From: Echinarachnius parma
Taxonomy: Eukaryota > Echinodermata > Echinoidea > Clypeasteroida > Echinarachniidae
Direction: 5' to 3'
Assembly: GCA_037951105.1 (NCBI GenBank)
Contig: JBAMJV010001343.1
Coordinates: 45,650 to 109,649, forward strand
Length of the DNA stretch: 64,000 nucleotides
Part shown: piece by piece, positions 1,137 to 38,575 of the stretch
Numbering within the stretch: the stretch's first letter is position 1
How the letters are laid out: each line of letters starts with the position of its first letter
Translations under genes and position numbers: made by a program
The notes under the pieces: model-generated
The model's input: the letters and a program-made list of their open reading frames with translations, nothing else
Told to the model about the DNA's origin: nothing
The model's database searches: none

Positions 1137-4100
1137 CTGTCAGGAAATATAAAAAAAACAGAGAGAGAGAGAGAGAGTAAAAACAGGGCTCGACACCAGC
1201 ACTAATTAATATTTCTGTTCAACTAAAAATTAAAAAAAATAAGCAAGTAAGTATACTTGCCCAAATAAGCTAGAAGAAAATTTAGTGTAGATGCTTGGTG
1301 AAAATGAATAGGTGTTTTAAAGATTTTGTTGGTACTCTTTGTACATTGTATGTCACAGAAACCGGGCATGGTGGCTTAGCGGTAAGGGCATCTGTTTCAT
1401 GCACACGAGGTCCTGGGTTTGATAACTGACCGTGTCATATCACAAAAGTTTATATATTTTAATTGACTTCATCCTAGCCAAGCAAGAAATAACTATTGCT
1501 AGTGGGGCGTAGGACCCTCTGTACATGAATAATTTGAATAAGGCAATAAACTATGATTAAATAAACATTCTATACTAAGTATTTACAATAGTGGACATTC
1601 ACCCACTAATAGAAACTAAACTATAAGATTATATAAAACATGTTAAATCTTTTCAAGAGAATAAAAATGCTATATCTTTGGTAGCAATTCACAAAAGACT
1701 ATAAGATGTATTGACTTAATAAATACTTTTAATATTTATCATAATAAGGTAGAGTCTATCAAGTCTTCGTATCTCCAAAGGCATACTATTCCAAATATCT
1801 GATCCCTGAAACAAGATACGTGCCAAATAGGCACGGGGGAATTTGACTTATTTTTACTAATACAATAAAATATAAGATGATGACAGCATAATTCAGGGAA
1901 ACTGAGCATTCCTATTGGTTGATTACCGTTGAGTATTCCAGTAAAGTGAACGTTGCTATAGGTAATGTTCCTTATAACCAAGATTTATGTACACTATGTG
2001 TGTACAAATTTCCCATAGACAGCCAAACGAGCCGCGCAGAGGATGGCCTTGAAGTGCCCTCTCAACGAGAACTTAACTATCCCAAAATTAAACTAGACAT
2101 GAGTGCACTCACGGAGTGCATACCTCCGCCGCGAATGAACAGACAGCCTACAAGAAAATGATCAAAATATCACATTTTGTGGGGAAAAATGGACACCAAA
2201 GCGACATATTTCCGTAATAAATAGCCCAAGCTTATCTTGTGTAGGTATGCTTTCATTTCATACTGTCTTTTTATGACATTTCTCTCAGCAATTCTGAACA
2301 TTTTCGACAAATTAAATCCATGGAACAAGCCTCCAGCTGGCAATTACTATGCCAGAGTTCCGGCCGGCGAAGGGGCTTGCTGTGGTGTGCATTCATAGCT
2401 GCACTGCATGCATGGTGATTGATGTACAGCTGGCTTGAGTTGGACTACGCATGTGCATTACTAACAAACGCACTAACAAACAGGACCGAAAACATAACCT
2501 CCTCCAACTTCGTTGGGCGGAGGTAATAAATTTGTTTGCTTTACCTGTAATATGTGCCAAAGAAGTTGAGGGGGCTGTACAGCTGCATGATGTATGATGA
2601 AAACAGAACATAATCTCCAACCTGACAAAAATAAGCAGAAAGCAACAATTAGAATGGAAAATAATTGGCTATAGATGCATAATCTCCAGCAAAAAAAATA
2701 GAAGAGAAAGGATATCTGTTTTTATTTGTTCAGATGTGCATGTTATCTTAAAGGGTTAGAACATCACAGGTACCGTTGTTTGATATTAAACAGATGTCCA
2801 ACACTTTGCAAATGTTTGTGCTATTCATAAATAATGCAATTAATCATCGAAACTCACAGAACCAACAGGCCTGATGATTCCAAAAAGCACCAAATGTTTG
2901 CGAGTACACCAATTATATACCCGCATATGTTTGGAGACAATAGAAGCACGGTAGACACATACATCCTAGACAATGGACTAGTCTTCGTCTGCCGACCCAT
3001 GTACAATAACTATAGTTATATAATGGGTTTTCAAATTATATAATTTGTCTCGAAACCAATCTGTCTAAACTTGTTGGTGGAATGGACTACTAAAACTATT
3101 ACATTGCATTTATAAGAATATTATTTTGGGGTGGTGGTTCCCTTTAAGCTGCTTAAGATTAATGATGATAACAATTTGTAGTTTTTGCACAGCAAATTTT
3201 GTAATTTCATATGCCCTGTAATCTGTATATCACTACATTTATCAGTGAATCTTGGTTATTCTTCATAAGCTCAACTCCCCGGGGAGCATATTAAGGCTGG
3301 CTAACAACTACATCCGACCAACAAGATGATGACAATGTTTGGAGTTCAGTAACATTTTGACAATTATAATAATAATAATAATGCAGTATGTACATTATAT
3401 TAAATCCCTGGGTAAAGCAATGTAATCCATCATACTGTTAAGCACAGTCTCAACTCCCCAGGGAGCATATTCAATGTAATTCAGCCACCATGCGCACAAA
3501 AACAGACAGTGAAATAAGCAGGCCTCAACACTAGCACTTGCCCACTTGCCCGGGGCAAGTAAAATTTGATATCGGGCAAGTAAAATGTCATAAATTGTCT
3601 AACTTACTTGCCCGATCGGGCAACTAAATAATGATTCAACTATGAGAAAACAATGTTATTTCATGCACATTCAAAGAGTAAGAGGGCAAGTAAATTTTAT
3701 TTTGGGGCAAGTAAAATGTTGGGATGTATGATTATGCTTGCCCGAATGTGCCAGTACAGAAAAGGGTTAGTGTAGAGGCTTGAAATAAGTGATGACAATT
3801 TTGTTCTGACCAAAATAAATAATATTACATGTCCATGATCCATCTTACTAAAGCACAATCTCAACTCCCAAGGGAGCATACTCACTGTAAGTGGGCCGTC
3901 AGCCACCATGCGCACATAAGCAAACAGTGAAACCAGTGATGAAAATGTTATTGAGTTCCATAAAGTAAATGTTTGGACATAAAAAAATAACAATTACATG
4001 TCCATGATCCATCATACTAAAGCACAATCTCAACTCCCAAGGGAGCATACTCAATGTAAGTGGGCCATCAGCCACCATGCGCACATAAGCAGACAGTGAA

Positions 4101-7100
4101 ACAAGTGATGACTAGATGGATCTTCGACTGCGCACAGTCAAAAATTATGCCTCCGCTATCACGTGATTTGATATCAAGCCCAAATTATCATGCACAGAGT
4201 TAATTCTGTAAACTCAATTTTGATGGTAATCCATCAACCAGATCTTGAGATATCACTTTAAATCCCACGGGAGCATACTCACTGTAAGTTGGCCATCGGC
4301 CACCATGTGAGCACACAGTAGACATCCAACCAGCAGACCGCCATTGATGATGACATTTTGAGCAGAGTTTAGCACCGTCAGGGACGCTATGGACTTCCAC
4401 TCGACCGCCTAGGAGTAAGTATTCAATTTATTGGATGTAAATGGGCAATTCCAGCATCACAGACATTACAAATTAGAGAATATGTGACCTTACATAATAC
4501 ACCACAAAACGACTGTTGTGTCACAGTGGTAATTTCTCTGTTATGAGCTGAAATAGTAAATTTTCGATTAAATTATGAGATTCAGGATATTGGTATTTCC
4601 TGAATGATTATCTTAATTTACTTTCTGTGAAATTATGAGGGTCAGGAATCATGTTGAAATATCATTTTTCATTGAATTAGGCCCGAGTCATCATGGTTAT
4701 TTTATAAACTGGGTCCCGATGGACTTGCACCGTTCGGGAATCGGTGCCCCGAGAAAAAATAAATAAACACCCTGACAAAGTGTCGTCGGAAACACACTGG
4801 CCTAGCTAGGCACGCGCCCATTTGTGTTGACTCCTTCAAGGAGTAATTTTCTCATATCCAAAAAAGTGGTTAGTAAAAAATTTGTGAATGCATATTGACG
4901 AGCAGTAACACACTGCTGCTCATGAATATTCATAAGCTAATTTTTTTACGAACCACTTTTTTTTAATATGAGAAAATTGTATATCCTGATACATGGTACT
5001 TAAGTAGTAAGCAATTATGGGCGCCCTAGACCAGTGTTGTATGTTTTCCAACTGCACTACAGGGTGTCTTTTTTTCTTTCTTTTTTGGCACCGGTTCTGA
5101 AAAAATGAAACCGGGACCCGATGGTGACGGTCGGGAACCGGTGTGACCGACCGAACCGACTCAGCCTTACATTGAATGTAAATGATAAGATTACAGCGCC
5201 TGAATGGACGGCAATCTTTCAAGCAACCTGTTTTCTCCCTAACTTTTAAACTGCTTAAGGTTTTTTTGGTGCTTTTGGAGCTTTTGGTTACTAAAATTCA
5301 GTTTGACCAAAACTGTACTCTCTTAACCAGAATTCAACTATCCCATATATCAACAGATTCAATTATTCTCAAATAAAATGACCGAAAACAAACAAAATCC
5401 AAGACATGTAAACAAACAGACATATGTTTTTAACATAGACTTGAATGTATCAACAGATTCAATTATTCTCAAATAAAATGGTAATCTGTTCCACATTATA
5501 CAGATGTTAACCGGTGGTGGAGGGAATATCACAGAATGTTCAATACGATGTTATACAAAATGATACAATCTCTCTTGCAGTGCGCGCCATGCGGTAAATA
5601 GTGGGCTTCTGGCGTGTAATATAACAAAATATTATTGCAATCACATGACTGTGTTGAGCCAATCAATGACTCGCATTTTACTAAGTCATATAATATTACC
5701 TGATATTCATCAATCGCCCCCGAGTACATACTGACTTCAAACTGCTCATTGTTGTAGTATTTCACCTGCAGAGAAATGACACACAAATAAAAACAAATAT
5801 AAAAAGTGGTCACAAGATAGTGGTGTAACCAGGACTTGACACTAGCACTTGCCCTGGGACAAGTAAAAATTGATATTGATGTCAGCAAGTCAAATTTTAT
5901 AAATGGTCTAAGTTTGGTAACCCGACTGGGCAACTCAATTTTTGCTCCACTAGGAGAGAATAATGTAATTCTTTATGCGTATATCTCATCTAGAAGTAAG
6001 CGGACAAGTAAGTTCTCTTTTTGTGCAAGGTAAAGTTGAAAAGTTATGATTTCAACCAAGTTATGATTCTGCTTGCCTCTAAACTCTTATAGAGTTGCTT
6101 ATGGGAACTGGGCGGGCTATGTTCAGAGTCTACCAGGATTTGACAAATTTGAAGGGAACGGGTTAATGTCAATTTCATCTGTCTACATTGTGCACTCACA
6201 GTTTCAAAATTGAGCAAGGAGTCGACGGACTTCTGTTTCATTTTGTTATCCAACAGGTTCGTCTGTCGTCTGTATTTGGTCCTCCACTCCGTCACAGCCA
6301 CTGTCACAACTGTGTGTAGGTAGGATTCAAAATAATATTTGATTTGATTTATTTATTTTCCACATTTTCAACAATTTATAAAGCATACAATAAACAAATG
6401 AACACGAATATAGTTGTTTGCTTATGATGAGTAAAAGGAATAAAGTTCATTTGATAGAGAATGTAATAAATATATTGAGTTTTTCAACTAATCTAACAAA
6501 ATCCTGTGCAATTTTCTAAATAGAATCAAGTATGTTTACATGTAGGCGAGAGCACGATCATGTCCCAGGAACAGCCCTAGTTGCACTGATCTCTAGATTA
6601 TGCTTGGGTAACATGCTGTAAGGTTGAATGAATAAGGGAGTTTGTGCTTTGCTACGTTCCTTTGAAGGTAGGTTATTCTAGCGTAATTGACATGGATGAA
6701 TCTTGAATGGGTTAAAAGAACAAGCAAAAAAGCCAAACTCATCGATACGATATATAGAGTGAAATTAAAAGGGACTTTTTTTTTTTCATTTTAAAGTACA
6801 AGCTTGAAAGTAAAACTTACTGATGTACAATGTCATGGCAACAAAGACGATGAGACCGAACCAGGCGTTGAATGCGCTGATGAAATACACAACGCCGATC
6901 ACGATGTCCGCTATAGTCGGTAAGATGTTGAACACAATGTAACTAGAAAAAGAGAAAATTAAAATTAACATTGAGGGGAGGCACACACTATTTACAGATA
7001 ATAGTGTAAAAATATTACATACGGGTTGTTTAAAATGTATTTATTCAAGTAAAATATGGTTGCTCTATGTTTGCATGCTTCATACTTTTTGGAAAGCTTT

Positions 7101-10100
7101 TGTTACGAATTGATATATTCATGTTGAATGCATTTTTAATACCAGGATGCGATTTTGGGAACCCAAGACAATTTTACATTTTTGGACCAATAAATGAAAT
7201 ATCAAATCTTGAATCTTCATTCAAGTATCAGGGTAACAGTTCAAGTTTAAGTTAATTGTTTCATTTTCACAATATAAATGTACAAATCATAATAATATAA
7301 AATAATACTTGTAATTAATACAACAGAAATTCAAAATAACATTTGTTTACATAATACGATAATTAAAGTGAAAATGAAGGGATCCACTGTGAAGCAAAGC
7401 TTGTCAACTAATTTGATCAGGAGAGGGCGCTCTATACCTGAGGAGACTGTTGATGCTGGTCGTTCCCCTGTCCATCATCCGCAGTACCTCCCCTGTCTTG
7501 CGGTTCAGATGCCAGCCCAGGGATAGACTGTCAGGATCAAACAGAAAGACAAAGTTATGAGAAAAATCATAATACAAGGCTGGATAGCTGCACAACACTG
7601 GTCTGTTGGCCAAGGACCAGTAAAAAAACAGAATTAGAAAATCTTGTTTTTAGCTTCCATGTGACAAGCACGTCAATCTATAATTGCAGTTTTGTTTTAC
7701 TTGCCTGACCAAGCCACTAGCAAAAAAGAGGAAAGTGTAGAGTCAGTCAGCTGAAGAAGATGTGTGGAAACGCATCGAAAGCTACCTTTGGTAAGCCAGA
7801 ACTTTTTGTTGTGTGCCTTTTTTTTTTTTTTTTACTTTTGCGTTAATACCCTTTAATGTAGCAAAAAAATTTGGGGGAAATTAAATCTAGTCATGCAAAA
7901 CTTCAGTTTATATGTTACTGTAAAGACAATGGTTTAACAGCAGGTGTAAACTAGACAACTTGTGCAAGCATTTACTTCATATTTTCAGATATTGTGATTT
8001 ATCTTTTGTTACCGCTATAGCATATTTCAAGTGTGAAATTGTCATTTATTTGTGCACATAAATATAAAACAGCTCAATGGAATTAATGCCCTGTATTCAC
8101 AAAGGAGGTTTGTAGGAGGTTTGTACAAACCATGGTTTATCCATAGTATACATCTATGGAGTGCCATTTGTAAACTGATGGAGAAATAATGTAAACTCCT
8201 TAGTTGTTAACAATGTTGATGGTACACATTTACTAAAGGCACCAAATAAATGTTTGTCTTCTCACAAGGTGAAATTTGCTGGTTAGCAAACACCAACAGT
8301 CATATCATTAGAAATTATAAATTGTTTTACTTGTATACGAGCAGCACTCCATAGATGTAGACCATGGATAAACCATGGTTTGTACAAACCTCCTACAAAC
8401 CTCCTTTGTGAATATCTAAAAACTTTGGGCAAGTGGATTTTGCTGTTGCCTGGTTGGGAAAGTAAATATATATTATTAATTTGCCCAACCAGGCAATCAA
8501 GAGAGTTGTTTTTTTAGAAACCTGCATGTAATATCCATCAAGGTAGTTGACCCAGCGTAGTCTCTGTAGATAGTTTGCGTTGTTCATCTAGAAGACTCTC
8601 CATCTGATATTTTGCTTATGTCATAAGATTAATGTCATAAGATTTTTCCCAAAGTGAAATTTGAGACTTCCATCATGTATCAATATCAGTGTAAGATTCT
8701 TCTGCATGATGTATTGTAGTTTTATAGAAAATGTGCACTGTTTTAGATAAATTTTCAAATTCTCACTAGCTAATAGCTAGTGAGAATTTGAAAATTTATC
8801 TCAGATGTTATCATCTACTGCCCATTTATTTTTTAATTCAATCGAAAATCATTCTGGAATGGTTTTCAATTCCATCAAAGATTTCTCCATAAGACTTTTG
8901 ACATATCAAAACCCATTTCATTCTTCTGTTAACATAGGCCAAACAACAACATGAAGGTGCAAGAGAAATGTGGAAGCTCCAAGTGATTTTGGTTCAATTT
9001 GATAGTCAATAGATCACTTTAAAGGGATCTAGTAACTTTGTTGACATGTGCTAAAAGTGATGAATGGTTGATACAATGTATATTGTTATCTGATATGTCC
9101 TCTGTGTATTGTGTGAAAATTTCAAGTTAAATGGACGTTAAATGGCCGAGTAATGAGCAAAAATGCAAAGTGATATTCACTAACTCATTGCACAAACGTT
9201 GTACATGGTTACGACTATCCAGTGGATAGTTCAACATCTAAACACTTCAATCATAAATACCTTTTTAACGAAACGGAAATTTGGAAAACCAAAACCTGTC
9301 CCACGCTTCTATTGTTGATACGAATACAACAAGGTATGAGGGAACTGCTTGAATTCCAATTGGATTTTGAGGATTTGGACAATGTTACTAGATCCCTTTA
9401 AAAAATAAAAATAAAAAAAAAAAAACATGACCAAAAGAAAGACACTTACTTGTGAAGATGCTCAAAGAGGCGTACCATGATGCCTTTGGTTGTGAACTGC
9501 TGCACTCGAATCCAGAGCAGAGAACGCATGTTGTTAAGCAACCCAAGACCTCCTAAAAATAGCAAGAGATATGCCAAATAGATACATGATCACAATCATA
9601 ATAATAATAACAGTTGTTAGCTAGTTGTTAATAATGCATGCTGGCTAGCAACCCAAGACCTCCTAAAAAATAGCACCAAAAAAATAAAAAAATTACAAGC
9701 ATAATCACAATCTTAATGGGTACCAGTAAAAAAAAAATAGATGGATCTTCGACTGCACGCAGTCAAAAATTATGCCTCCGCTATGATGCGATTTTAAATA
9801 CCAAGCCCAAATTAACATGCACTGAATTAATTTTTGTATATATTCTACATATATTTTGAGTCCTGTGACCTTGACCATATGACCCCAAACTTTGATGGCT
9901 ATCAAAAACATTCAGGTATCAAGTTTGATTGAAATCTGACATTTAGTTCTTGAGATTTTTCCATTACAAACATTTATTTTTCGGGGGCTACTTTTCAAGC
10001 TTGCCTCCATGAAAATGACACTCCAATTAACTCTATACAAATTTTCAGGGGGTATTTTTTGCATTTCGGGGGCGAATTCGCTGACAAAGTTGTTGGCAAC

Positions 10101-13100
10101 ATCTCCGACACCGGTATCCAAGCTTTCAAAGGGCACATACATGCTTTCCTCCTATTCAAAATTTGATTGTTAAATGCTAAGTTTTATAATGTACTATTGA
10201 TATTATATTTTTTAGTTAAAGGGGTAGTACAGTTTTGGTAAGGCTGAACTTTAGTAACCAAAACCTGCACAGTAACATTACAAACTAATATTTATAACCC
10301 CACCATGCTCGAAAGGTATACAAAAATACAAACGACTAAGTAAAAAGCCTGTTATCATTCAAAAAGCGCCATTAAAACACAAGAGGGCGCTCTCTAATAA
10401 GGCATTGGTTTAAACCATTGTTCATACAAAATTATGCATGTGATGTTTTGTTGAAATAATGATTAATTAGAGAGATCATCAACAACTATGAAAAAACCGC
10501 TTTTGAAATTTTTTGAAAAAGTGTACAAGCATTTTTAAATTTTTTTCAAAAAATCATCATATTTATTTGGGGCCCAAATAAATATGATTGGATAATATTT
10601 ATTGATATTTCAGCCATTTCTGAACCGATTTTGACCAAATAAAGTTTATTCTGCAATAAAATTGCATGTTCTTTCAAATTCGACACTCAGTTTTTCATTA
10701 CCTCACAAGAAAATTGTGTTGTGCAGCGCCCTCTCAACCAAAACTGAACTACTTGATTGGCATTCCGGAGTTTCACCAAGGCTCTGGTAGGCTATTGTTC
10801 ACAATTGCATTCTATATACAAACAAAAACTAGATGGATCTTCGACTGCGCGCAGTCGAAAATGATGCCTCCGTCATTGCGCGATTTATATATATCAAGCC
10901 CAAATTAACATGCGGGCAACTCCAGCGTCACGGACATTACAAATCAGAGAATTTTCATGACTTTCCAATGCCACTACTAATTCATACCTCTAACTAATGT
11001 CTAACTTTTATTTTGATTACAAAGCAATATCCTGGTTTAGTATGCAAAAAAAGTTTCAGAACATTTATCCAATTCGTTACTGAGTAATTCTGCAAAATGT
11101 GCGCCGTCACCAACCAAAAAAATACTTTTTTTTTCACGAGGGCGATTTTGAAAATTTTGAGGGAAAAAAACGCCCTCGTGAAATTATTCACGAGGGCTAT
11201 TTTGGGGCTCACGGGGGCTCTTTTTTTTTTACATCGTTTTCACTGCTCAAGGGTCTAATAAATGATTATCATGATGTGATCTATCTGATTATGCCATGTT
11301 TGGTACGTTTCTGGCGCTTTCCGATCATGCAAAAAGAAAAAAAAAAAAAAAAAAAAAAAGGTATCGGGGGCGAATCGCCCTTTGCCCCTGTGTATTTTTT
11401 TAGTTGGCCGTCACGGACATTACATCTTTTGAACATGACTTTTTGCATCCATATACATCTTTGCAAAAGTCTGTGAGTTCTGAGACCTCACAAAGGTGAT
11501 TTAGGTATTTAATTATAGAACAGGCAATGATGAATTGAATCCAAGTTGTTTTGGGGGAAACGGGCCAGGCATATGTGATCTAGACAACAAAAAATTGCGT
11601 CACAGACATTACATTTTCAGCGTCACAGACATTACACTTTTGTCCACTTTTTCTAAACTCAGAAATAACCCGCAAAAAAAGCTCCATTGTGCATGAAACT
11701 TTTTTAATTGTACATTTGATATGTAATCAAACAGTTTTGAGAACAATAATTATATTTCAATTTTGTTTCATTTTTCCATCCTTGGGTAACATTTTTCGTG
11801 GAATTGCCCATACACAGAATTAATTCTGTCAACTCAATTTTGATGGTAATCTGTCTATCAGATCTTGACATATCACAATTATGAGCTATATATAAGTGAA
11901 CTTGACCTTTGCCCTCATTCAAATTCAAATTATAGGTACCAAGTTTGACGGTTATTTGTCAACTGATTCTTGAGATAATTTTACAAAATGAGTCCTGTGA
12001 CCTGTGACCTCATGACCCCAAAATATATTGACTACAAATGCTCTCTAGGATACATTCAGGTACCAAGTTGGATTGCAATCTGACATTCAGTTCTTGAGAT
12101 TTCCAATTACAAGCTATTTTTGCATGTATAATGAGCCATGTGACCTTTGACCTTTGACCTCATGACCCCAAAATGTAATCAGTTCATCGGCTCCCCAAGA
12201 TACATACATGTACTAAGTTTGGGCAGAATCTGTCAAGCGGTTCTTGAGATAACGTGATCACAAGGTATTTTTGCATATATAATGAGCCCTGTGACCTTTG
12301 ACCTTTGACCTCATGATCCCAAAATCTAATCAGTTCATTGGCTCTCCAAGATACATACATGTACCAAGTTTGGGCAGAATCCGTCAATCGGTTCTTGAGA
12401 TAACACTATCACAAGCTATTTTTGCATATATAATGAGGTCTGAGACCTTTGACCTTTGACCTCATGACCCCAAAATCTAATCAGTTCATTGGCTCCCTAA
12501 GATACATACAAAAACCAGGTTTGGTCAGAATCCGTCAATCCGTTCTTGAGATAACGCGATCACAAGCTATTTTTGCATATATAATGAGCTCTGTGACCTT
12601 TGACCTCATGACCCCAAAATCGAATCAGTTCATTGGCTCCCCAAGATACATACATGTACCAAGTTTGGTCAGAATCCGTCAATCCGTTCTTGAGATAACA
12701 CGATCACGAGAACGGGACGTACGTACGGACGTACGTACGTACGTACGGACGGACAACCCGAAAACATAATGCCTCTGGCAACTTCGTTACGGAGGCATAA
12801 AAAGATGTCCTTACCAAATCCTCCACCCTGAAGCACTTTGCACATCACGTAGAACAGGATCAACTGAACTGGGAAGCGGGGTGTTTCCCCACCTAGAGCA
12901 TCCACTGCAAAAGATATAAGAAATGATCACCCGTTTGTATTTTTATGATTTGTTAACAAATTAAATTCAAACATTGGGTAAACTAACAAGAAGTTAATTA
13001 AATGAATATATGAATATATATACATGAACTTTGCGATTAATCACAACTCTTTATGCAACAGGCTCAGAGGGTGTTTCACAAATATTCATCCTTTTTATTC

Positions 13101-16100
13101 TACTGGAAAACGTTCAGATGATTTGTAAATAGTGGATACTCCCTTTAAAAAGAACTATTCCTACAATGTTACAAAGAAACTAATGGCTTTCCCTAGTAGC
13201 TATGTCCAACTTGTTAAGTTCAGCTTTGAATCTTTGTGAAGCACCCCCCCCCCCCCCCCCCAAGGCCTTGGAAAGATTTTACTAAAGCTAGCTATCCCTT
13301 CCCAAGAGCCTAAACCCACAACAACTACTGAAACCCATCGCACATCTAGATTTTGAGAAAACTTTTTGCAGCAACCCATCGCTTCTGCAACAAGTTCTGT
13401 GATCGATTGCAAAGCCAATAGTGAAATCAGCCCAAGTGGCCTAAAAAAGACCTAAAGCCTTTCACCACTATTGTGGAGCAAATATTTGATCAAAAAAACT
13501 ACTCTACCTATCAAAGCTGATAATGTTGTTGTGAAACTGGAGAAACTTACTCATGTTTAATAGTGCGATGTTTTGCTGGTTGACAATCGGCCAAACATCG
13601 CCCTTTTTTCAGTTTATTGATTTTATAAACTTTGATACAATTCTACTTCAACAGGATAAATAAGAATATATACATAAACTACTGTACCTATATCCTTGCT
13701 GAGTACAGGAACAAATACATTGATGACTCTTCCGCCGACCAGTATCAAGAGACAGAGGAGGACCCTAATCTGCATGAGGCAGTCTCCTTTGGGCCAGACA
13801 TAGGGGAAGATGATTCGCACCTTGGTCAACACGTTGGCCCATGTCGAGGAGTTTTCAGGGCCGTTTGGCGGTATCTCATTGGTCTGTACATAAAATAGCA
13901 GAATATGAATTAAAAGGAGAGGTTGAAACATGATCTGCATATATAAAGGCAGTCACGACGTAGGGTCAGATGATTTGCACTGTGGTCAATACTCAATACA
14001 TGAGCTAATGTCTAGGAGTTTTCTGGACCATTTGGTGGTATCTCTTTGGTCTGTATATGAACAAAGAGCAGCACATAAAAGTAGAAAGAGAGCAGTTAAA
14101 ACATGATCTACATAAGGCAGTTGCATTTGAGTCGGACATAGAGCCAGGTGATTTGCACCTTGGTCAATACATGAGCCCACGTCAAAGAGTTTTCAGGACC
14201 ATTTGGTGGTTACTCATTGGTCTGTAAATAGAAAGCAGCATACAAAATAGAAGAAAGAGTGAGGTTAAAGCCAGATCTGTATTCTATAAGGCAGTTGCCT
14301 TTGGGCCAGACTAAGGCTGAGTCATGTCGGTAATTGTCGGAACCGGGTCCCGATAAACTTTTACCGGTCGGGAACCGGTATCCCGATAAATTTTTACCGT
14401 CGAAACTCGACCGGTAAAATCACGCAATCGTGCACGCATCGGCAAAAATGCACTGTTTGGGGCTTATATTGCTCTTTTTATATATATGCAAATAACATTA
14501 TAAATACCGAGGCTTTTATGGATTTACATATCAATCTTTACGGGAAAATAGTTACAGACTATCCAGAATTAACTCAGTTTCGCATGAAAAGTACTTTTTT
14601 CGAAGTAAATTGGACCTAGAAATCGATCGTTTGTTCACCATTGCCCATCGCAACACGGTTCACAGAAACTTAGCCCGCTAGTCGGGCGGGGGAAACATCA
14701 CATGTACGATCGCTTGTGACTGTGAGCCACTGCCCTCAAAAAGTGGCTATAAATTAGCCTTTTCGCAATCAACACCATTTTGATATTCTACTTACATGAT
14801 TTCATGGCGTTTGATAGCTGAACAGAAACAAAAATGAGCCCCAAAACAATGAAAACAATTACGCAAAATATCGATAAAAAACGACTACATCGCTCCTATT
14901 CGCTCGATATACTTTGTGTGCAAGATACGGGTCTTTTTTTCTTACCCGAGATTCATCCGCGGCCGGTGGAACTATGTTAATACATCCGCCATAGGTTATA
15001 AGTTATAACGTATGGCGGATGTATTAACATAGTTCCACCGGCCGCGGATGAATCTCGGGTAAGAAAAAAAGACCCGTATCTTGCACACAAAGTATATCGA
15101 GCGAATAGCAGCGATGTAGTCGTTTTTTATCGATATTTTGCGTAATTGTTTTCATTGTTTTGGGGCTCATTTTTGTTTCTGTTCAGCTATCAAACGCCAT
15201 GAAATCATGTAAGTAGAATATCAAAACATTTTAAAATGGTGCAAATTACCAAAAAACGTATTTTTAGCCACTTTTTGAATGCACTGGCTCATCAGCTGGA
15301 TCATACAAAGATCCATCAGACAACTCCCCTGGAGTATCGGACTAACATTGTGTGCACATCCGCCGACAATATCGTTCAAATGACTAGCAATTTTGCGCTT
15401 CCTGTTCAATTTCTGACTGTCAAACGAAGTAATGAACCAAGAATTTCTCGAAAATAACCACTCTTTAAAGTAAATGATATCAATTGCCCCGTTTTTATTT
15501 GAATTCCGCTACATTATTGTGATAATCTTAATTTCTTTTTTAACATTTTATTTTTTTTATTTTTTTTTCGGGGCACCGTTTCCCGATATACCGAACCGGG
15601 TCCCGATTGAAACGGTCGGTAACTGGTGTGATCGCCCGAACCGACTCAGCCTTAGGCCAGACATAGGGCCAGCTGATTCGCACCTTGGTCAATACATTAG
15701 CCCATGTCGAGGAGTTTGCAGGACCGTTTGGTGGTATCTCATTTGTCTGTATATAAAAATCAGTATGATGACATAAATGGTACCCTGTGGTACCAAACGA
15801 AAATCCGTCATTTTGTTTACCGTAAAACTCTGTGTATAAGGCGCACTTTTTTTCCGTCGAAAACATTTCAAAGTGGGGGGTGCGTCTTATACACAGGTAC
15901 AGGGAAAAAAAAGAAAAAAAAATTGAAATAAATTTTTTTGGGGGGGGACACCCTGTAGTCATGTTCAATGCGTATTACACTGGTCTAGGACATTTACAAT
16001 CTTAGCTTGATGTGAGGGGAACATTTATCAACATATGCCTTTTTCCTACATAAATGATAGTGGTTAGCAAAACAAAATACAAGTTGTTTAAGCAGTTACA

Positions 16101-16531
16101 CTGCTACTAATTGATTATTCAAATGTTCATGAGTACTAGCAGCACTCATTTAATATTCAATTTTCTAACCAGTGGTTCTACATCTTTCTCATTAAAAAAA
16201 AGTTATTAATGAATTTAGTATTTTGCATATTTAATGAGCATTGTTATCTAATGAATATATGAATATTCATGAGCAACAGTGTTATTGCTCAATAAATGTG
16301 CAATTTTTGTAATAACCACTATGTTTTATTTGAGAAAATGTATATATATACATTTTCTCAAATAAAACATAGTGTTGATGAATTTATGAATTTAATTTAT
16401 GAATTAAAAACATTTATGTTGATGAATGCTACATTAAACATTAAGCCCTTGTTATGCCCTAGAACAGTGATGTTAGCATTCCAACAGCACTACAGGGTGA
16501 CTAAAAAAAATACAGGGTGTCTTAAAAAAAA

Positions 16532-16562
<31 letters not shown>

Positions 16563-18388
16563 GTTTTTTTTTTAAAAGAAAGTTGGGGGTGCGCCTTATA
16601 CACGGAATTTTACGGTAATTATTTATTTATTTTGTAGGGCTGTACTCTGGGTATAGCATGCATACAAGCGTGCGCTGCACGGTACGGACCGATAATTTGC
16701 ACCTAGGACCATATTGTACATTGGCCCACGTCGATGGGTTTTGGGGACCATTTGGGACCTAGATAAAGTCTGTGCATAATGCCTATGTTTGCTTCTAAGG
16801 CTTAATCTTGATTTCATACTCACTGGAGTATCATCCTCTCCGTTGATGAGTAGCATGTAGCTCTTCTTTGGCAGGCCGGGAGCTCTCAATCCCAGAATAA
16901 ACAGGGTGAGCGTTAACAGGTACCGCGCCAGCCACAGCCCGAACATGGCTTGATGAAACGGCGACTCCAGCGACCACCAGTAGTGAGGGCTCCCCCATGA
17001 GATGAACGCCAAATTCTCGTTGACAAACGCTAGCGCCCAAAACAGGAGGAGAATGACGCCGTGGCCGCGGGCGCGACTGGACGACAGGACCTTGGTGCGC
17101 TCCAGGGCGATGACGAAAATAGACACCAGGTAGGAGGCTATGTAGAAGCATGTTCCAAGAGCGATGTCCCCCGTGAGCGCTTCGTCGAGGGAGGGGTAGA
17201 TGACGATGCGGACCACGTACTGGGTCACCATGGCGATAGTCAGCGCCACCTGGATGTGGAACCATGTTGGGTTCGTGCGGAACCGTCGCTCCACGCTCAT
17301 GGCACGCTTCCAGAAGACCAGCACCTGCATGGGGACAATGAACAGAGAGATCCGATTAGTTAATTTTGTGTAGATATCATGGATCTGCATAATCAGCACT
17401 AAAACCTATGTTGCATCCACTAGAAACAATAGATACATCATACAATAATATGACCATACTTGTGTGTATCAAAGGCAATGCACCTAGACAATGAGCTTAT
17501 GCACAAGAGAAAGAGAAGATGAGTTTTCCATTTTTATTTTGTTGTTGTAAATTTTTTTAAACTCAACCAAAATCACTTTGAGCTTTCACACATCTTTTTT
17601 ACCTTGTTGTTTGACTTACAGAAGAATTAAATGGATTTTGACTTTCCAAATGTCCCCCTCATTATGGAGATATTTAAGATATTTAAAATCAGACATTGAT
17701 TTTTGCTGTTTTCATTGTGTAAATATTATTCTTTTTTTATGAAAATCTCACATATCATTCTCAAGAATCTTACAGTGATATTGGTATATTCATAGAAGTC
17801 TCAAATATTACTTTTTATAAATAATATAAAGTCAATGGATCACTTCTTAATAATGATATAAAAAATGATTATCAATAATGTTGACAATAATATAATCTTC
17901 GGCTTTGAAACACATATTTCTAGAATGCAATGTATACTGTAAGTTTGCCACATACATTTATAAACCATACTGTATAAACCACAGGGGCTAGGAAGTCAGG
18001 TTCCTGCTATAAACTGCTCATTTTACTTCGAAATGAGCCTGAACAGTCGCTAACCGATCATAATTACATTACTCTGTGGACATCTCAGATCACAGAAATA
18101 CACATTCATTTGACCCTTTGTTAGTGTTTGCATGTCCACATAACTTTCTTATAACCCTTTAAAATGAGCCTGAATTAAATGAACAGTCTGGGTTATATCA
18201 TAAATTTTACGATTTATTCTAACCGACCATAATTATCAACGCACCTGAACTCCTCCCATAATGACGACAATGAAGAACATGATGGACGAAACCAGGGTCT
18301 CCATGAAGCAACGGGACAGGCCATTGTCCACCCAAACCGGGGCTAGACTGGAGTTCCCGGGACAGAAGTCTGAATTTCCCATTCCCAT
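1073..18388 (-). CDS. ABCB6: ABCB6-type half ABC transporter, 5' 12 exons (partial)
   Basis: Twelve coding exons on the minus strand join into 563 codons with matching phases at every junction: 18388-18245, 17324-16824, 13883-13688, 12904-12815, 9552-9450, 7527-7438, 6942-6821, 6309-6200, 5765-5700, 4408-4283, 2621-2545, 1136-1073. All introns are GT-AG. The protein has an N-terminal five-helix TMD0 (about residues 30-210) and then the ABC membrane domain with family-typical stretches [52 protein letters not shown] and [10 protein letters not shown]. It stops before the Walker A motif, so the ATPase domain lies beyond the left edge. The family (ABCB6/HMT1) moves porphyrins or metal-thiol conjugates across mitochondrial, endolysosomal or plasma membranes; the substrate here cannot be told. 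The start MGMGNSDFC aligns with the vertebrate N-terminus. Introns are full of transposons and decayed copies of the gene's own exons. Confidence 0.95.
1184..1297. mobile_element. hAT-like MITE fragment (CAGG-CTCGACAC family)
   Basis: Begins cagggctcgacaccagcact and ends ttagtgtagatgctt, like the better preserved element at 3519-3781. Target duplication not clear. Preceded by a short (GA)n run. Confidence 0.55.
1365..1552 (+). repeat. tRNA-derived SINE
   Basis: The head reads ggtggcttagcggtaagggc then gaggtcctgggtttgataac, a degenerate pol III A box and B box at tRNA spacing. An unrelated body follows, ending ggcaataaac. It cannot be a working tRNA because no acceptor stem closes. Confidence 0.6.
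1553..2480. other. Intron 11, unassigned
   Basis: AT-rich intron sequence. Open frames here are short and mutually overlapping on both strands. I see no exon, RNA gene or clear repeat boundary. Confidence 0.6.
2484..2530. repeat. Hairpin end of GGAGGcAT-type element
   Basis: cataacctcctccaacttcg then ttgggcggaggtaat resembles the right end of the element at 10829-12799 (atgcctctggcaacttcg, ttacggaggcat). It abuts exon 11's donor, about 15 bp away. Confidence 0.5.
2545..2621 (-). CDS. ABCB6: ABCB6 coding exon 11
   Basis: 77 bp, acceptor atttttgtcag, donor TATTACAG|gtaaag, ends phase 2. It encodes [20 protein letters not shown] then FGTYY, matching the last membrane-domain helix of the family. 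Confidence 0.94.
2748..3147 (+). mobile_element. TTAA-bounded MITE family B, copy 1
   Basis: About 400 bp between TTAAAGGG and CCCTTTAA. The body matches 34992-35419: ggtaccgttgt, caacactttgcaaa, atggactactaaa, ttataagaatattatt. Non-coding. Confidence 0.8.
3260..4112 (-). pseudogene. Four decayed copies of ABCB6 exon 10 3' end and donor
   Basis: Units centred on gggagcata at about 3281, 3461, 3872 and 4041 repeat the 3' end of exon 10 and the following intron. The two nearest units (4041, 3872) read MVADGPLT on the minus strand; the donor word gtgagtatg is intact at 3872 and altered to ttgagtatg at 4041. The outer two are more decayed. Spacings are 169, 180, 229 and, where a hAT-like element (3519-3781) is inserted, 411 bp. 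Confidence 0.8.
3519..3781. mobile_element. hAT-like MITE with 8-bp target duplication
   Basis: 263 bp, ends CAGGCCTCAACACTA and TTAGTGTAGAGGCTT (imperfect inverted repeats), flanked by direct GAAATAAG at 3511-3518 and 3782-3789. The interior is rich in gggcaagtaaa and its complement. Inserted into one of the exon-10 copies. Confidence 0.85.
4113..4259 (+). repeat. Fragment of the ATGGATCTTCGACTG element
   Basis: Starts agatggatcttcgactgcgc and matches the start of the elements at 9739 and 10829. Its right part (ttaattctgt, aactcaattttgatggtaat) matches 11815-11875. It ends about 24 bp from the exon 10 donor, so the insertion nearly reached the splice site. Confidence 0.75.
4283..4408 (-). 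CDS. ABCB6: ABCB6 coding exon 10
   Basis: 126 bp, 42 codons, phase 0, from [20 protein letters not shown] to MVADGQLT. Acceptor ctcctag, donor CTTACA|gtgagt. A transposon fragment ends only about 24 bp beyond the donor. The 3' end and donor are echoed four times in the next intron. Confidence 0.93.
4483..4669 (-). repeat. Dispersed repeat family C, copy 2 (inverted)
   Basis: Complement of 1-232 and 36193-36424: gtgacctta, ccacaaaacgac, then ggtatttcctgaatgat. Interrupted on its right by the hAT-like element at 4678. Confidence 0.7.
4678..5169. mobile_element. hAT-type foldback element, short relative
   Basis: 492 bp, terminal repeats TAGGCCCGAGTC and GACTCAGCCTTA, flanked by direct 8-bp CATTGAAT at 4670-4677 and 5170-5177. 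The sub-ends share gggtcccgat and cgggaaccgg with 14312-15654. Inside is an imperfect hairpin (4858-4965) around tgaatattcat-like words. Non-autonomous. Confidence 0.88.
5700..5765 (-). CDS. ABCB6: ABCB6 coding exon 9
   Basis: 66 bp, 22 codons, phase 0: [20 protein letters not shown] then YQ. Acceptor tttctctgcag, donor ATCAG|gtaata. It joins exon 8 as NFETVKYYN. Confidence 0.94.
5830..6090. mobile_element. hAT-like MITE fragment (relative of 3519-3781)
   Basis: Begins caggacttgacactagcact followed by tgcccTgggacaagtaaaa, as in the element at 3519. The right end is degraded near gcttgcctctaaact. No target duplication recognised. Confidence 0.55.
6200..6309 (-). CDS. ABCB6: ABCB6 coding exon 8
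   Basis: 110 bp, acceptor acctacacacag, donor GAAACT|gtgagt, ends phase 0. It encodes [17 protein letters not shown] and [11 protein letters not shown], family hallmarks. An unusually long open read-through follows the donor, but the next exon restores VKYYN. Confidence 0.94.
6310..6820. other. Intron 7, unassigned
   Basis: AT-rich intron with short homopolymers and no recognised repeat, RNA or exon. Confidence 0.6.
6821..6942 (-). CDS. ABCB6: ABCB6 coding exon 7
   Basis: 122 bp, acceptor tctttttctag, donor ATCA|gtaagt, enters phase 2 and leaves phase 1. It encodes [20 protein letters not shown] and [19 protein letters not shown], two membrane helices. Confidence 0.94.
6943..7437. other. 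Intron 6, unassigned
   Basis: AT-rich intron sequence. The 62-codon plus-strand frame at 7067-7255 has no recognisable homology and AT-driven composition. Confidence 0.6.
7438..7527 (-). CDS. ABCB6: ABCB6 coding exon 6
   Basis: 90 bp, acceptor gatcctgacag, donor CTCAG|gtatag, phase 2 at both ends. It encodes [20 protein letters not shown] and GTTSINSLL, the cytoplasmic coupling segment conserved across ABCB6 and ABCB7 transporters. Confidence 0.93.
7735..7812 (+). repeat. Hammerhead-like core motif in a repeat remnant
   Basis: ctgaaga, then a stem gatgtg/cgcatc with loop tggaaa, then gaaa. This is the CUGANGA-stem II-GAAA layout of hammerhead cores found in Penelope-like and retrozyme repeats. 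The outer stems are weak, so activity is doubtful. Confidence 0.4.
8094..8414. mobile_element. MITE with about 72-bp inverted repeats
   Basis: 321 bp. Ends tattcacaaaggaggtttgt and its complement, continuing inward through accatggttta and tagatgtat. A fragment of the same family is at 31687-31755. Non-coding. Confidence 0.85.
8745..8801. repeat. 57-bp perfect palindrome
   Basis: Arms agataaattttcaaattctc and onward to ctagcta, centred at 8773, with no mismatches. It could form a hairpin in the pre-mRNA of ABCB6 intron 5. Confidence 0.95.
9019..9401 (+). mobile_element. TTAA-bounded MITE family A, copy 2
   Basis: 383 bp from TTAAAGGGATCTAGTAAC to GTTACTAGATCCCTTTAA, so both ends are intact inverted repeats. 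About 50 bp from exon 5's donor. Confidence 0.88.
9450..9552 (-). CDS. ABCB6: ABCB6 coding exon 5
   Basis: 103 bp, acceptor ctatttttag, donor CACAA|gtaagt, enters phase 1 and leaves phase 2. It encodes [20 protein letters not shown] and then VRLFEHLH, a close match to the family stretch that precedes SLRWHLGRRTGEV. Confidence 0.92.
9632..9676 (-). pseudogene. Micro-copy of ABCB6 exon 5 5' end
   Basis: About 45 bp repeats the first about 35 bp of exon 5 and its acceptor; agcaacccaagacctcctaa is identical. It lies about 110 bp upstream of the real exon in transcript sense. Confidence 0.75.
9739..10150 (+). repeat. ATGGATCTTCGACTG element, copy 2 (partial)
   Basis: Starts agatggatcttcgactgcac, matching 10829 and 4113. 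It continues with tgaccttgacc, gaccccaaa and the 'tcaagtttgattgaaatctg' type words seen in the 150-bp array. The right end is lost. Confidence 0.7.
10829..12799 (+). mobile_element. Non-coding element with internal 150-bp tandem array
   Basis: About 2 kb from agatggatcttcgactgcgc to the hairpin end atgcctctggcaacttcg/ttacggaggcataa. The left end contains the 16-bp palindrome cgactgcgcgcagtcg. The interior includes poly-A/poly-T runs (11332-11359) and the 12005-12716 array. No transposase frame, so class is unknown; a hairpin-ended Helitron-like element is possible. Confidence 0.6.
12005..12716 (+). repeat. 150-bp tandem array, five units
   Basis: tgacctcatga.cccaaaat recurs at 12005, 12156, 12306, 12457 and 12601 (periods 151, 150, 151, 144). 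Each unit holds ttggctc.ccaagatacata, caagtttgg.cagaatc.gtcaa and cttgagataac. Three middle units carry TGACCT repeats every 7 bp. The 106-codon frame across it arises because the period is nearly a multiple of three. Confidence 0.92.
12815..12904 (-). CDS. ABCB6: ABCB6 coding exon 4
   Basis: 90 bp with phase 1 at both ends: acceptor tcttttgcag, donor TTTG|gtaagg. It encodes [28 protein letters not shown], matching the vertebrate segment that ends KFLQGGG. Confidence 0.92.
12905..13687. other. Intron 3, unassigned
   Basis: AT-rich intron with a poly-C tract at about 13244-13261. No other structure recognised. Confidence 0.6.
13688..13883 (-). CDS. ABCB6: ABCB6 coding exon 3
   Basis: 196 bp, acceptor ttatgtacag|ACC, donor ATATAG|gtacag, ends phase 1. 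It encodes [18 protein letters not shown], then [13 protein letters not shown], then the first helix of the main membrane domain. It is the intact end of an array of decayed tandem copies (see 13931-16790). Confidence 0.92.
13931..14103 (-). pseudogene. Tandem decayed copy 1 of ABCB6 exon 3 (5' part)
   Basis: Matches the 5' part of exon 3 plus its acceptor and upstream intron. The acceptor tctgtatatg-type sequence lies near 14050, about 166 bp from the real one at 13884. On the minus strand the copy begins ACC AAA GAG ATA and soon meets TAG, so it cannot encode the segment. Confidence 0.8.
14104..14290 (-). pseudogene. Tandem decayed copy 2 of ABCB6 exon 3 (5' part)
   Basis: The next unit, about 171 bp further. 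Its acceptor is near 14221, and the copy reads ACC AAT GAG TAA, an early stop. It keeps gcaccttggtcaatacatgagcccacgtc, aligned here in pieces to the exon, and the flanking aagaaagag intron words. Confidence 0.8.
14312..15654. mobile_element. hAT-type foldback element with giant palindrome
   Basis: 1,343 bp, ends TAAGGCTGAGTC and GACTCAGCCTTA (12 bp exact), flanked by GGCCAGAC at 14304-14311 and 15655-15662. The uninterrupted site is visible in exon 3 (gggccagacatagg), so the 8-bp duplication is secure. Behind the termini are diverged gggtcccgat/accggt repeats and moderately diverged outer arms; the core 14778-15226 is a near-perfect palindrome. No transposase. Confidence 0.93.
14778..15226. 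repeat. 449-bp near-perfect palindrome
   Basis: Arms pair with a constant coordinate sum of 30004 from 14778/15226 inward to the centre at 15002, so there are no indels. I find two mismatched pairs: one in the gctcctattcgctc stretch and one next to the centre. Arms of about 224 bp would give a long hairpin RNA when the intron is transcribed. Confidence 0.95.
15655..15760 (-). pseudogene. Copy 3 of ABCB6 exon 3, split by a foldback element
   Basis: Its left flank (14283-14311) and this part are separated by the 1,343-bp element 14312-15654. The minus-strand reading is still open after an intact acceptor (tatatacag): [18 protein letters not shown] then [14 protein letters not shown]. It then runs into the element, with no donor of its own seen. 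It is the best preserved copy. Confidence 0.8.
15820..16615. mobile_element. TA-duplicating inverted-repeat element
   Basis: 796 bp, left CCGTAAAACTCTGTGTATAA and right end complementary to CCGTAAAATTCCGTGTATAA, both followed by ggcgcac; flanked by TA. Tc1/mariner-like signature, no transposase. The interior has an inverted 'ctacagggtg' segment, AAT repeats (about 16525-16560) and the 16317-16374 palindrome. Confidence 0.85.
16317..16374. repeat. 58-bp perfect palindrome
   Basis: Arms cactatgttttatttgagaa continuing through aatg around a (TA) centre at 16345/16346, with no mismatch. It lies inside the 15820-16615 element. Confidence 0.95.
16685..16795 (-). pseudogene. Copy 4 of ABCB6 exon 3 (most decayed)
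   Basis: Shares gataatttgcacct, cattggcccacgtcga and ggaccatttggg with exon 3 but has several small indels. It lies about 30 bp beyond the exon 2 donor. Confidence 0.65.
16824..17324 (-). CDS. ABCB6: ABCB6 coding exon 2 (TMD0)
   Basis: 167 codons, phase 0 at both ends, starting [10 protein letters not shown] and ending GEDDTP|gtgagt. It encodes four hydrophobic segments of TMD0 including [18 protein letters not shown] and [20 protein letters not shown]. The NENLAF.SW..P.WWW-like stretch is typical of ABCB6. Its GC content is well above that of the flanking introns. Confidence 0.95.
17325..18244. other. Intron 1, unassigned
   Basis: AT-rich intron. The stretch near 17580-17780 resembles 55520-55640 (ctttcacacat, then gaagtct.aaat), a diffuse dispersed repeat. 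No exon seen. Confidence 0.5.
18245..18388 (-). CDS. ABCB6: ABCB6 coding exon 1
   Basis: 48 codons, MGMGNSDFC to MGGVQ, ending at CAG|gtgcgt (phase 0). Residue N12 is in an NSS sequon, and C9 and C27 are 18 residues apart, the spacing I recall for the vertebrate N-terminal disulfide pair. The exon runs upstream to an acceptor near 18434 (pyrimidine run then ttcag), so the leader is spliced. An in-frame ATG two codons downstream is an alternative start. Confidence 0.9.
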
Positions 18389-24391: not shown

Positions 24392-25779
24392 TATTCATAT
24401 TAATGGAGAAGTTTCTCTAAGAACTTAAGTAGATTGGGCGAAAGGAAGCAACCTAAGATATCCTACAGTGAATGTTTGAGCAGATTTGGATAATTCAATC
24501 AACTGAGGATCGCCGCGTTTCATAGGCGTACCCAGGATTTTTTCAGGGGGGGCCCGGGGGGTGATTTCGTCGGCCCGCGGTTATGTTGGTCGAGAATGCT
24601 AAACAAGTGGACTCGAGACCCGTTAAAAATGGTATTAAAAAAAAGAAAAAAAAAAGCAATTTTGTCATACACCCGGGTTACGCATATATGATATGGCGTG
24701 TTCACATCTAGATGATCAAAGCTGTGATAAATTATTGTATGCTGCCCTCTCATGTGGTTATATTGCCAGTGTGATTAATATCACAAAACTTGAAAGGAAT
24801 CGAATGCCAAAATTTCACTTTCAGTCAAGAACATGTATATTCCCTCTACTCTTATACTCAGTTATGTTAGAAGAAAATGTACTGTACATACAAATTTTTA
24901 AAAAATGAGGTCGGGTGGCCTGATCATCCTCCTCATATTTGGGGTCAAAACAAATAAAACACACTAAGGTGAAGGGATGAATTCAGTATTAGAAAAGGCG
25001 TTTGCTACAAAATGCTCTACGAAGTGAATTTGACATACTTTTTAATGGGGGGGGGGGGGGGGGGGGGTGGTAGCTCCCATTTTTCTGATTGTATTAATTC
25101 CCGACTCCTACCACCCCCCCCCCCCCCCCCCCCCCCCTCCCCTTCCAGGCACTTTGCACCCTCGGGCTTGGTCGTTTCACTCCCTACCCTATGTTCTATA
25201 CGGCACATCACGGAGTACCCCCCCCCCCCCTCCCCCGCAAACAGATCGAGAGAAGGATTCGACGCATATTACAGATCATTAGCAGATCTGAACCATCACA
25301 CCAAATATTACCTCGATACATTTGTTTAAAGAAAAGGTTTCAAACTATATATAATATATATAACTGTCTTTACGTAAATCAGATGAATCAAGATACAGGA
25401 CCTTTCTTCACATCAAATTTAAAGTGTCTCATACCAGGTTTTCAAGGTTTTCTGTGAGTTGAGAATTTGCTAGTGCATTAGTTTCCGCAACGAGTATCAA
25501 AGACAGTAATACATAATAAACGTAATTGTGAACGCTCAAGTTCGAAAAAAAAAATGTTAATCCCAAAACAGAACAAATCACCTTACTTCACAAATTACGA
25601 ACTAATGGGTCTGAAATCAGCTCAGGCCGTGGAGCACCCCCCCCCCCCCCCTCCCCTCCCCTCTCCACTGCATGTATTTTGAACTAAATTAGTAATATTA
25701 TATTAATCATACTTTTAGAATACTATCCCAGCGCACTTTGAAATTAATACTATACCATTCGAACATGAGAACAATGTCA
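24392..25779. other. Intergenic, poly-G/C tracts
   Basis: Contains a long poly-G (about 25047-25067) facing a poly-C (about 25116-25138), a second poly-C at 25220-25232 and a third at 25637-25652. The proline-rich and glycine-rich frames come from these runs. No gene seen. Confidence 0.6.
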
Positions 25780-26783
25780 ACTCTTCTACATAAACGACCT
25801 ACCTGACCAACTCTCCTCCAAAGCTAGACTGTTTGCAGATGATGCCATCATGTACATGACCATCCAAGCTCCAGAAGATGCTAGGCTGCTCCAACAAGAC
25901 CTGGACACCCTAAGTAGCTGGTCAAGGAAATGGATGATGGAACTCAATCCAAGGAAATGCCATGCTATAACAGTCACCAGGAAGAAGACCAGATTCATAC
26001 ATCAGTACTCTCTGAACGGTGAAATTCTGGATTCTGTGTCATCGGCCAAATACCTTGGAGTAACCATCACCTCTGACCTCAACTGGAAACAACACATCTC
26101 AAACATCTGTCAGAAGGCAAACAACACCCTAGCATTTCTCAGAAGGAACGTGCGTGTCCATTCAACCCAACTCAAGACAACAGCATACCAGGCTCTTGTA
26201 CGCCCTCTCCTTGAGTATGGATGCACCGTCTGGGACCCGTACACAGTGGGATGCATACAACAGTTGGAGATGGTCCAGAGACGAGCGGCTAGGTATGTGC
26301 TGAATCGCTACCACAACACCAGTAGTGTCTCCGATATGTTGAGCCAGCTTGGATGGGCCTCCCTTCAAAAGAGAAGAGAAATCCACCGTCTCACAATGCT
26401 CTACAAGATGCATCACTCACTGGTAGACTTCAACACAAATCAGTACATCCAAACAGCAGACATCAACCGGACGACAAGAGCCACACGACTGTTCTGCTAC
26501 ATGATCCCACATTCCAGAACTGATCAACACCAGCAGTCCTACTTCCCTCGAACAGCTCGTCAGTGGAATGCCCTTCCCTTAGAGGTTGTCCTGGCACCAT
26601 CTGTGGAGGCCTTCCGTCGCCACCTGACGGAAGGAACGAAGTAAACACCGGAATAGACTTTTACTTGCACTTTGTAAATAAGCACCTGCGCACCCTGTGT
26701 ATGCACACACACACACACACACAGTATCTGCAAGAATCTTCAGGATTGAAGGAGGCAGATTAACCCGAAGAAGAAGAAGAACT
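25780..26783 (+). mobile_element. 5'-truncated non-LTR retrotransposon (RT 3' part)
   Basis: An open frame from about 25784 to the TAA at 26642 encodes FYINDLPDQLSSKARLFADD and onward. FADD is the catalytic box of reverse transcriptase, followed by KYLGVTITSDLNWKQHI, ALVRPLLEYGCTVWDP and VQRRAARYV, typical of Jockey/CR1/L2-type elements. The endonuclease and most of the RT are missing. The 3' end carries (AC)n and a GAAGAAGAA tail. The surviving frame has no stop, so the insertion may be fairly young. Not a host gene. Confidence 0.93.
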
Positions 26784-38547: not shown

Positions 38548-38575
38548 GATCCGTCACAGGATCACCACCAAAACC

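Follow-up and report, generated by a model that had tools for sequence, protein, structure and literature searches.

Genomic context and structure of the palindromic element

We analysed a 64 000 nt stretch of the Echinarachnius parma genome (assembly GCA_037951105.1, contig JBAMJV010001343.1, positions 45 650 to 109 649 of the forward strand), hereafter referred to as the window. At its focus is a 449 bp near-perfect palindrome that forms the core of a 1343 bp transposon, probably a non-autonomous member of the hAT superfamily, of which many copies are present in the genome. The coordinates of the element and of the neighbouring exons are listed in Table 1. As the element sits between minus-strand open reading frames that match ABCB6, it is likely to be intronic in that gene, in agreement with an earlier interpretation made from the letters of the window without database searches (the sequence-only reading). 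A splice-donor-like GTGAGT was seen by eye near position 16823, within the frame that carries the N-terminal ABCB6 exon.

Table 1. Features of the palindromic element and of the surrounding ABCB6 locus (window coordinates)
Feature	Position	Strand	Basis
Complete transposon copy, 1343 bp, non-autonomous, probably hAT; ends TAAGGCTGAGTC...GACTCAGCCTTA	14312..15654	+	Many independent copies, most with the same ends
Left 8 bp target-site duplication, GGCCAGAC	14304..14311		Flank comparison
Right 8 bp target-site duplication, GGCCAGAC	15655..15662		Flank comparison
Whole inverted duplication	14645..15361		Its left half is missing in all six O relatives examined
Outer left part of the inverted duplication, decayed	14645..14777		86/114 aligned positions identical to reversed 15227-15361
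Outer right part of the inverted duplication, decayed	15227..15361		Aligned to the outer left part
Left core arm, 224 bp	14778..15001		Self-pairing
Right core arm, 224 bp	15003..15226		222/224 pair with the left arm
Central 17 bp, found in both orientations among copies; G..G..G in the window copy	14994..15010		Copy comparison
Left-arm 18-mer with a 1 bp insertion private to the window copy	14899..14916	+	Exact search of the assembly
Right-arm 18-mer with the same private 1 bp insertion	15088..15105	-	Exact search of the assembly
Open frame with ABCB6 N-terminal exon	16623..17405	-	Pfam MTABC_N 1.2e-46; ABCB6 chains of PDB
Open frame with downstream ABCB6 exon	7407..7649	-	1.5e-07, ABCB6 chains first
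Open frame with further downstream ABCB6 exon	6789..7040	-	3.4e-13, ABCB6 chains only

Self-comparison of the window paired the two core arms over 224 positions at a constant coordinate sum of 30004, without indels and around a one-base spacer at position 15002. Two pairs are mismatched, 14895/15109 (C/C) and 14994/15010 (G/G), so that the extent and the mismatch count are exactly those of the sequence-only reading, and the palindrome is confirmed as it stands in the assembly. Palindromes nearly identical to it are found in many insertions that each have distinct flanks, which makes both chance and a fold-back error at a single locus unlikely. Folded as single-stranded RNA, the 449 nt core has a predicted energy of -398 kcal/mol, against a mean of -97 in 100 shuffles, and an Rfam search of the window returned no family at gathering score. 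A second short palindrome, with overlapping 38 bp arms of 95% identity, lies near the core at 16312-16379, in the same putative ABCB6 intron.

Element positions are given below as el1-1343, corresponding to window positions 14312-15654. The inverted ends TAAGG...CCTTA are present in the window copy and in most of the listed copies, with some ends mutated. Exact 8 bp target duplications flank 35 of 39 distinct copies; a larger set of 55, some of them with damaged ends, gave 47. Among the 35 exact duplications, position 2 is T in 25 and position 7 is A in 27, which we treat as a preference (nTnnnnAn) and not as a rule. The ends of hAT elements begin with YARNG and their target preference is nTnnnnAn; the ends, duplication length and target preference of the present family all agree with this pattern, and on these grounds the element is probably a non-autonomous hAT transposon. 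An 8 bp target duplication fits P elements as well. No transposase-sized open frame is present, the one stop-to-stop frame of 144 aa running over the right end. The element thus resembles hAT-type miniature inverted-repeat transposable elements in its target duplication, its YARNG-type ends and its lack of a transposase-sized frame, but differs from them in having a near-perfect 449 bp palindrome as its interior.

For the core arm and for each of the two outer parts, left and right, the 1.2 Gb assembly of the same species contains numerous near-identical matches (best 40 of 1370, 2167 and 1726 candidates scored, respectively). The host site of the window copy is one unit of a repeat of ~170 bp, and a neighbouring unit near 13792 has a similar stretch that is undisturbed. 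This diverged repeat occupies 13768-14308 and 15631-15758.

Origin of the inverted duplication

The inverted duplication extends beyond the core on both sides. The outer left part (el334-466) aligns to the inverted el916-1050 with 75% identity (86/114), scoring 75.5 against a maximum of 26.5 in 200 shuffles. Further out, el1-333 (14312-14644) and el1051-1343 (15362-15654) gave 59.0 against a best shuffle of 58.5, and 49.0 against 48.0 without the ends. The view that the outer arms of the element are clearly diverged therefore applies to 14645-15361, but does not extend to the outermost parts, whose scores barely exceed those of shuffles. A first alignment of the outer parts taken jointly had scored 115.5, with a maximum of 24.0 in 50 shuffles; the idea that the whole element is one old palindrome was rejected when testing part by part left el334-466 versus el916-1050 as the only pairing to stand out.

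Six related elements, termed O relatives, were examined, chosen by likeness to one palindrome-free fragment (best 40 of 3119 candidates scored). They are 810-1037 bp long and match the left end of the element, four of them as far as el329-333, L133 with a gap and L134 to el209; they also match the right part from el797-820 through to the end, and have a centre of their own. No forward match to the left arm region was found in any of the six. As these relatives are without the palindrome, we infer that an ancestral element gained an inverted duplication, of which the outer part decayed whilst the inner part was kept up. Loss of the left arm in the O relatives could also account for the difference.

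Changes mirrored on both arms

Fifty-nine distinct copies with a contiguous core were compared to one common arm, after reading 128 loci and merging duplicates; to be included, a core had to form a single contiguous match of >92% identity. Of 169 kinds of variant, nine were mirrored on the two arms in one copy or more, giving 44 occurrences. Named by distance from the centre, these are -139 C>G, -121 A>C, a 10 bp deletion at -104, -96 C>T, -95 G>A, -95 G>C, -95 insA, -93 A>G and -73 G>A. The 10 bp deletion is on both arms in two copies and on the left arm alone in one. The 18-mer spanning the -95 insertion has two exact matches in the assembly, one on each arm of the window copy; as only exact matches were sought, a copy altered elsewhere within the 18-mer would have escaped.

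Apart from the edge and the central 8 bases, the mirrored share rises with the number of carriers, from 2/121 kinds confined to one copy to 5/41 in two to five copies and 2/2 in at least six. Most arm variants are one-sided, with 236 occurrences. Where -73 G>A and -95 G>A are one-sided they are always on the left arm (9/9 and 6/6, respectively). Changes mirrored on both arms, one mark of an inverted repeat maintained by template switching, are therefore present in this family, and the data support homogenization of the arms by arm-to-arm copying.

Mirroring was also seen between subfamilies. Type B is represented by ten full copies, nine of which have equal 8 bp flanks, and by 12 of 14 further cores (22 of 24 cores used; L124 and L125 left out). 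Over the 151 sites of el467-620, the consensus of the 22 B cores differs from that of type A at 12 sites in the left arm and nine in the right; eight of the 12 differing sites are mirrored identically, and at one site both arms differ from A but not in the same way, against an expected overlap of 0.7 (P 2.5e-12). When polarized by the right arm of the O relatives, sites 508, 552 and 558 changed on both arms in B and site 548 in A, the direction at sites 504 and 524 being left unsettled by this outgroup. At sites 518 and 532 only the B left arm retains the O state, the newer one being present on the other B arm and on both arms of A. Thirteen of the 22 B cores (L070, L074, L077, L084, L085, L116, L118, L120, L121, L123, L126, L127 and L128) have right-arm deletions at one spot beside the centre, in about eight forms by eye, which marks a deletion hotspot.

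Inversion of the central bases

The central 17 bp read GGTTATAAGTTATAACG or its exact reverse complement. The outer parts give the orientation of 52 exact centres, of which 34 are GGG, 13 CCC, three GGC and two GCC; hybrids are under-represented in this set, as 16 loci were fetched for a GGG or CCC centre. The whole assembly holds 58 exact centres in the four forms (51 GGG/CCC and seven GGC/GCC), with 0 control hits. The spacer region thus occurs in both orientations, a second mark of an inverted repeat maintained by template switching.

Both orientations are found within groups of copies that share other markers. Nine copies with the outer marker 143C comprise five CCC, three GGG and one GGC centre, and of the three -93G copies one is GGC and two are GCC. 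The one-sided -73 change lies on the left whichever way the centre is oriented (five GGG, four CCC); as it keeps its side, the flips would reach less than 73 bp from the centre, provided that the change is older than the flips. Recurrent flipping of the centre is the simplest reading of these patterns, and exchange between copies is an alternative. One locus, L049, initially scored as a GCC centre, has a centre of C type. An additional insertion there forms a hairpin of its own, which looks like outgrowth of the palindrome at the tip. At this locus (L049:317-583 and 3060-3463) an A copy sits inside an older O-type element with a block of tandem repeats, and a motif similar to that block by eye, GGTCAAAGGTCA, occurs in an array of the window at 11994-12707.

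Inherited identity and loss of the core

Other copies have cores with similarly alike arms, so that the case named in the sequence-only reading as refuting it, arms no more alike than the outer region in other copies, did not arise. Excluding centre and edge sites, the arms of one copy differ by a mean of 4.1 variants over the 59 copies, and by one in the window copy. The G/G mismatch at 14994/15010 is common to many copies, and the C/C mismatch at 14895/15109 is confined to the window copy among 28 copies compared. These 28 A copies are ~1% from the family consensus, with arms and outer parts alike (0.95 and 1.07% for the arms, 0.56% for the outer left and 1.21% for the outer right part), values biased downwards by the choice of copies, which was made on resemblance to the window copy in its arm or outer left part.

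The sequence-only reading had offered arm-to-arm gene conversion, template switching at the hairpin or a recent origin of the core as explanations for this identity. Copying between arms or template switching is supported, also in the window copy, but as mirroring after insertion is slow, most of that copy's near-identity is inherited from a recently amplified source that was already near-perfect.

Some copies have lost core sequence. Thirty loci were chosen by their outer left part, and 24 of these have both arm-edge anchors. The distance between the anchors is 406-442 bases in 19 loci (427 in the window copy), falls to 258-345 in four and rises to 754 in one. The remaining six are without an arm-edge anchor, one of them (L060) having a contiguous core. 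The sequence-only reading had also predicted that a transcribed hairpin may yield hairpin siRNA (21-24 nt, from both arms) or be an ADAR target with A-to-G editing, and that the DNA may form a cruciform or fragile site; of these putative properties, instability would fit the core deletions in part of the copies. Three allelic pairs, one recognized by both flanks and two by one, showed ordinary changes only, and all have shortened cores.

Proposed mechanism and alternative explanations

In our judgement, the palindrome is the core of a non-autonomous foldback transposon, the arms of which probably copy each other by template switching at the hairpin. In the proposed sequence of events, suggested by the non-palindromic relatives, an inverted duplication of part of the right half would have turned the ancestral element palindromic. 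A nascent strand may then fold back on itself or switch strand at the hairpin and copy the opposite arm, keeping the inner 224 bp alike; such switches would mirror new mutations and, where they pass over the tip alone, would invert the central few bases. The source lineage would have been near-perfect at the time of amplification and the window copy would have inherited that state, subsequently gaining the one-sided mutation at 14895/15109 and one mirrored 1 bp insertion. The data show the transposon structure, the copy number, the mirrored changes and the two orientations of the centre; template switching is the reading of them that we favour over classical gene conversion, with replication as its putative occasion. 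Homogenization of the arms together with inversion of the spacer is the published mark of template switching, which causes arm homogenization and reversible spacer inversion at short inverted repeats in yeast (PMC8604942), and creates and keeps up hairpin stems in RNA genes (PMC8794818). The parallel with those systems extends to arm homogenization, spacer inversion and stem upkeep, but here the arms are 224 bp long, the central unit is 17 bp, and the setting is a transposon with dozens of copies.

Classical gene conversion or crossing over, between arms, sister chromatids or copies at a cruciform or break, is possible but unlikely. It predicts the same products for mirrored variants, a crossover between arms would invert the centre, and core markers do occur in many combinations; however, in carriers of the -73 change the flip reaches no further than 73 bp from the centre, which is short for a crossover, and only the same copy, its sister or its allele could have donated the private insertion. 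Were the core instead to have arisen once, shortly before amplification, without any copying between arms since, the low divergence from the consensus, alike in arms and outer parts, and the 236 one-sided occurrences would be expected. The private mirrored insertion contradicts this, if the assembly is right at the locus, as do the mirrored deletion, the mirrored transversions and the mirrored fixed differences between A and B, and we regard such a history as very unlikely. That the assembly itself made the arms alike, through foldback reads or polishing, has to be considered, since palindromes are hard to assemble and the arms are known here from the assembly; it is nevertheless highly improbable, given that similar limits are shared by many insertions that differ in flanks and target duplications, and that arms differing by a mean of 4.1 variants over 59 copies have not been collapsed. 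Selection for pairing in a functional hairpin RNA or DNA, acting through compensatory changes, would suit the extremely stable predicted fold. It would require two steps for each mirrored change, including the 10 bp deletion, and would have to tolerate the 236 one-sided occurrences and the loss of core sequence from part of the copies, so that we find it scarcely credible.

Several observations weigh against template switching between the arms, or limit what it explains. Widening the A-B comparison to el467-640 gives eight mirrored sites of 17 (P 7e-10), with five more one-sided sites at 621-625. The divergence between A and B rises from ~4% at the core edge to as much as 36% at the centre, where the alignment is doubtful, and most outer stretches differ by 0-3% and some by up to 5%; this rise towards the centre is not explained by point mutation alone, and exchange with a diverged core or multi-base switching are candidate causes. 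A raised point-mutation rate in the core was considered and is not favoured, given the arm and outer divergences of the A copies reported above. Mirrored -96 C>T, -95 G>A and -73 G>A are CpG transitions and could in part be double hits, and two of the six copies with a left-only -95 G>A have another change at that place on the right arm. The tree of outer parts is star-like, with 40 of 56 inner branches open, and gives no firm count of flips; the many combinations of core markers also allow exchange between copies. Because mirroring is rare once a copy has inserted, it contributes little to how alike the arms of any one young copy are. The palindrome-free query that defined the O sample may have passed over old relatives that are palindromic. 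Finally, the hAT dimerization domain has 34 matches in the genome, some in long open frames, and none of these is linked to the ends of the element, so that no autonomous partner was found among them.

Comparison with other palindromic systems

The closest comparison is with Galileo and other foldback-like transposons of Drosophila (P superfamily), which share long inverted repeats and high likeness within copies (PMC2775673, PMC3573991). GalileoN-1 and -2 have repeats >99% alike within a copy and ~7% apart between copies, and GalileoN-4 and -5 have an oppositely oriented middle segment and chimeric repeats that are more alike between than within copies (PMC2775673); elsewhere, Galileo-like repeats are 98-100% alike within copies, and exchange between copies has been proposed (PMC3573991). 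As described there, the repeats of Galileo are terminal, with a spacer of ~350 bp (two copies described) and a 7 bp target duplication, whereas those of the present element are internal, with a one-base spacer and an 8 bp duplication. Non-palindromic relatives are at hand for this element. The element family was not found in the literature searched, which is no proof of absence.

The palindromes of sex chromosomes are large, gene-bearing single loci, and differ in this from the short mobile repeat described here. They are alike in that copying keeps their arms similar (PMC7023750).

The process we propose is already known; what is unusual here is that both marks and an outgroup are available for an internal, nearly spacerless palindrome in many copies. 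According to a review, instability is a greater risk for long inverted repeats that are highly similar and separated by a short spacer or none (PMC7999016), and despite this risk the present palindrome has amplified to dozens of copies. Because the insertions are separate and a non-palindromic yardstick exists, the frequency, direction and length of arm copying and tip inversion become measurable. The family also cautions against dating the origin of a palindrome by the identity of its arms. It is a long shot, but conceivable, that re-perfection of the core is tied to amplification, with an intact hairpin helping transposition or replication and with homogenization and flips taking place in the transposition cycle. 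If re-perfection is indeed tied to success in this manner, the family would serve as a natural, replicated record of template switching at hairpins within a complex genome.

Other features of the window

Remnants resembling an older relative of the element lie in the same gene region at 4685-5169, with 75-89% identity over short stretches of both ends. Elsewhere in the window, a reverse transcriptase fragment (Pfam RVT_1) is present at 25769-26644, and positions 38504-39886 hold a stop-free open frame of 460 codons that resembles galactosyltransferases (Pfam Galactosyl_T).
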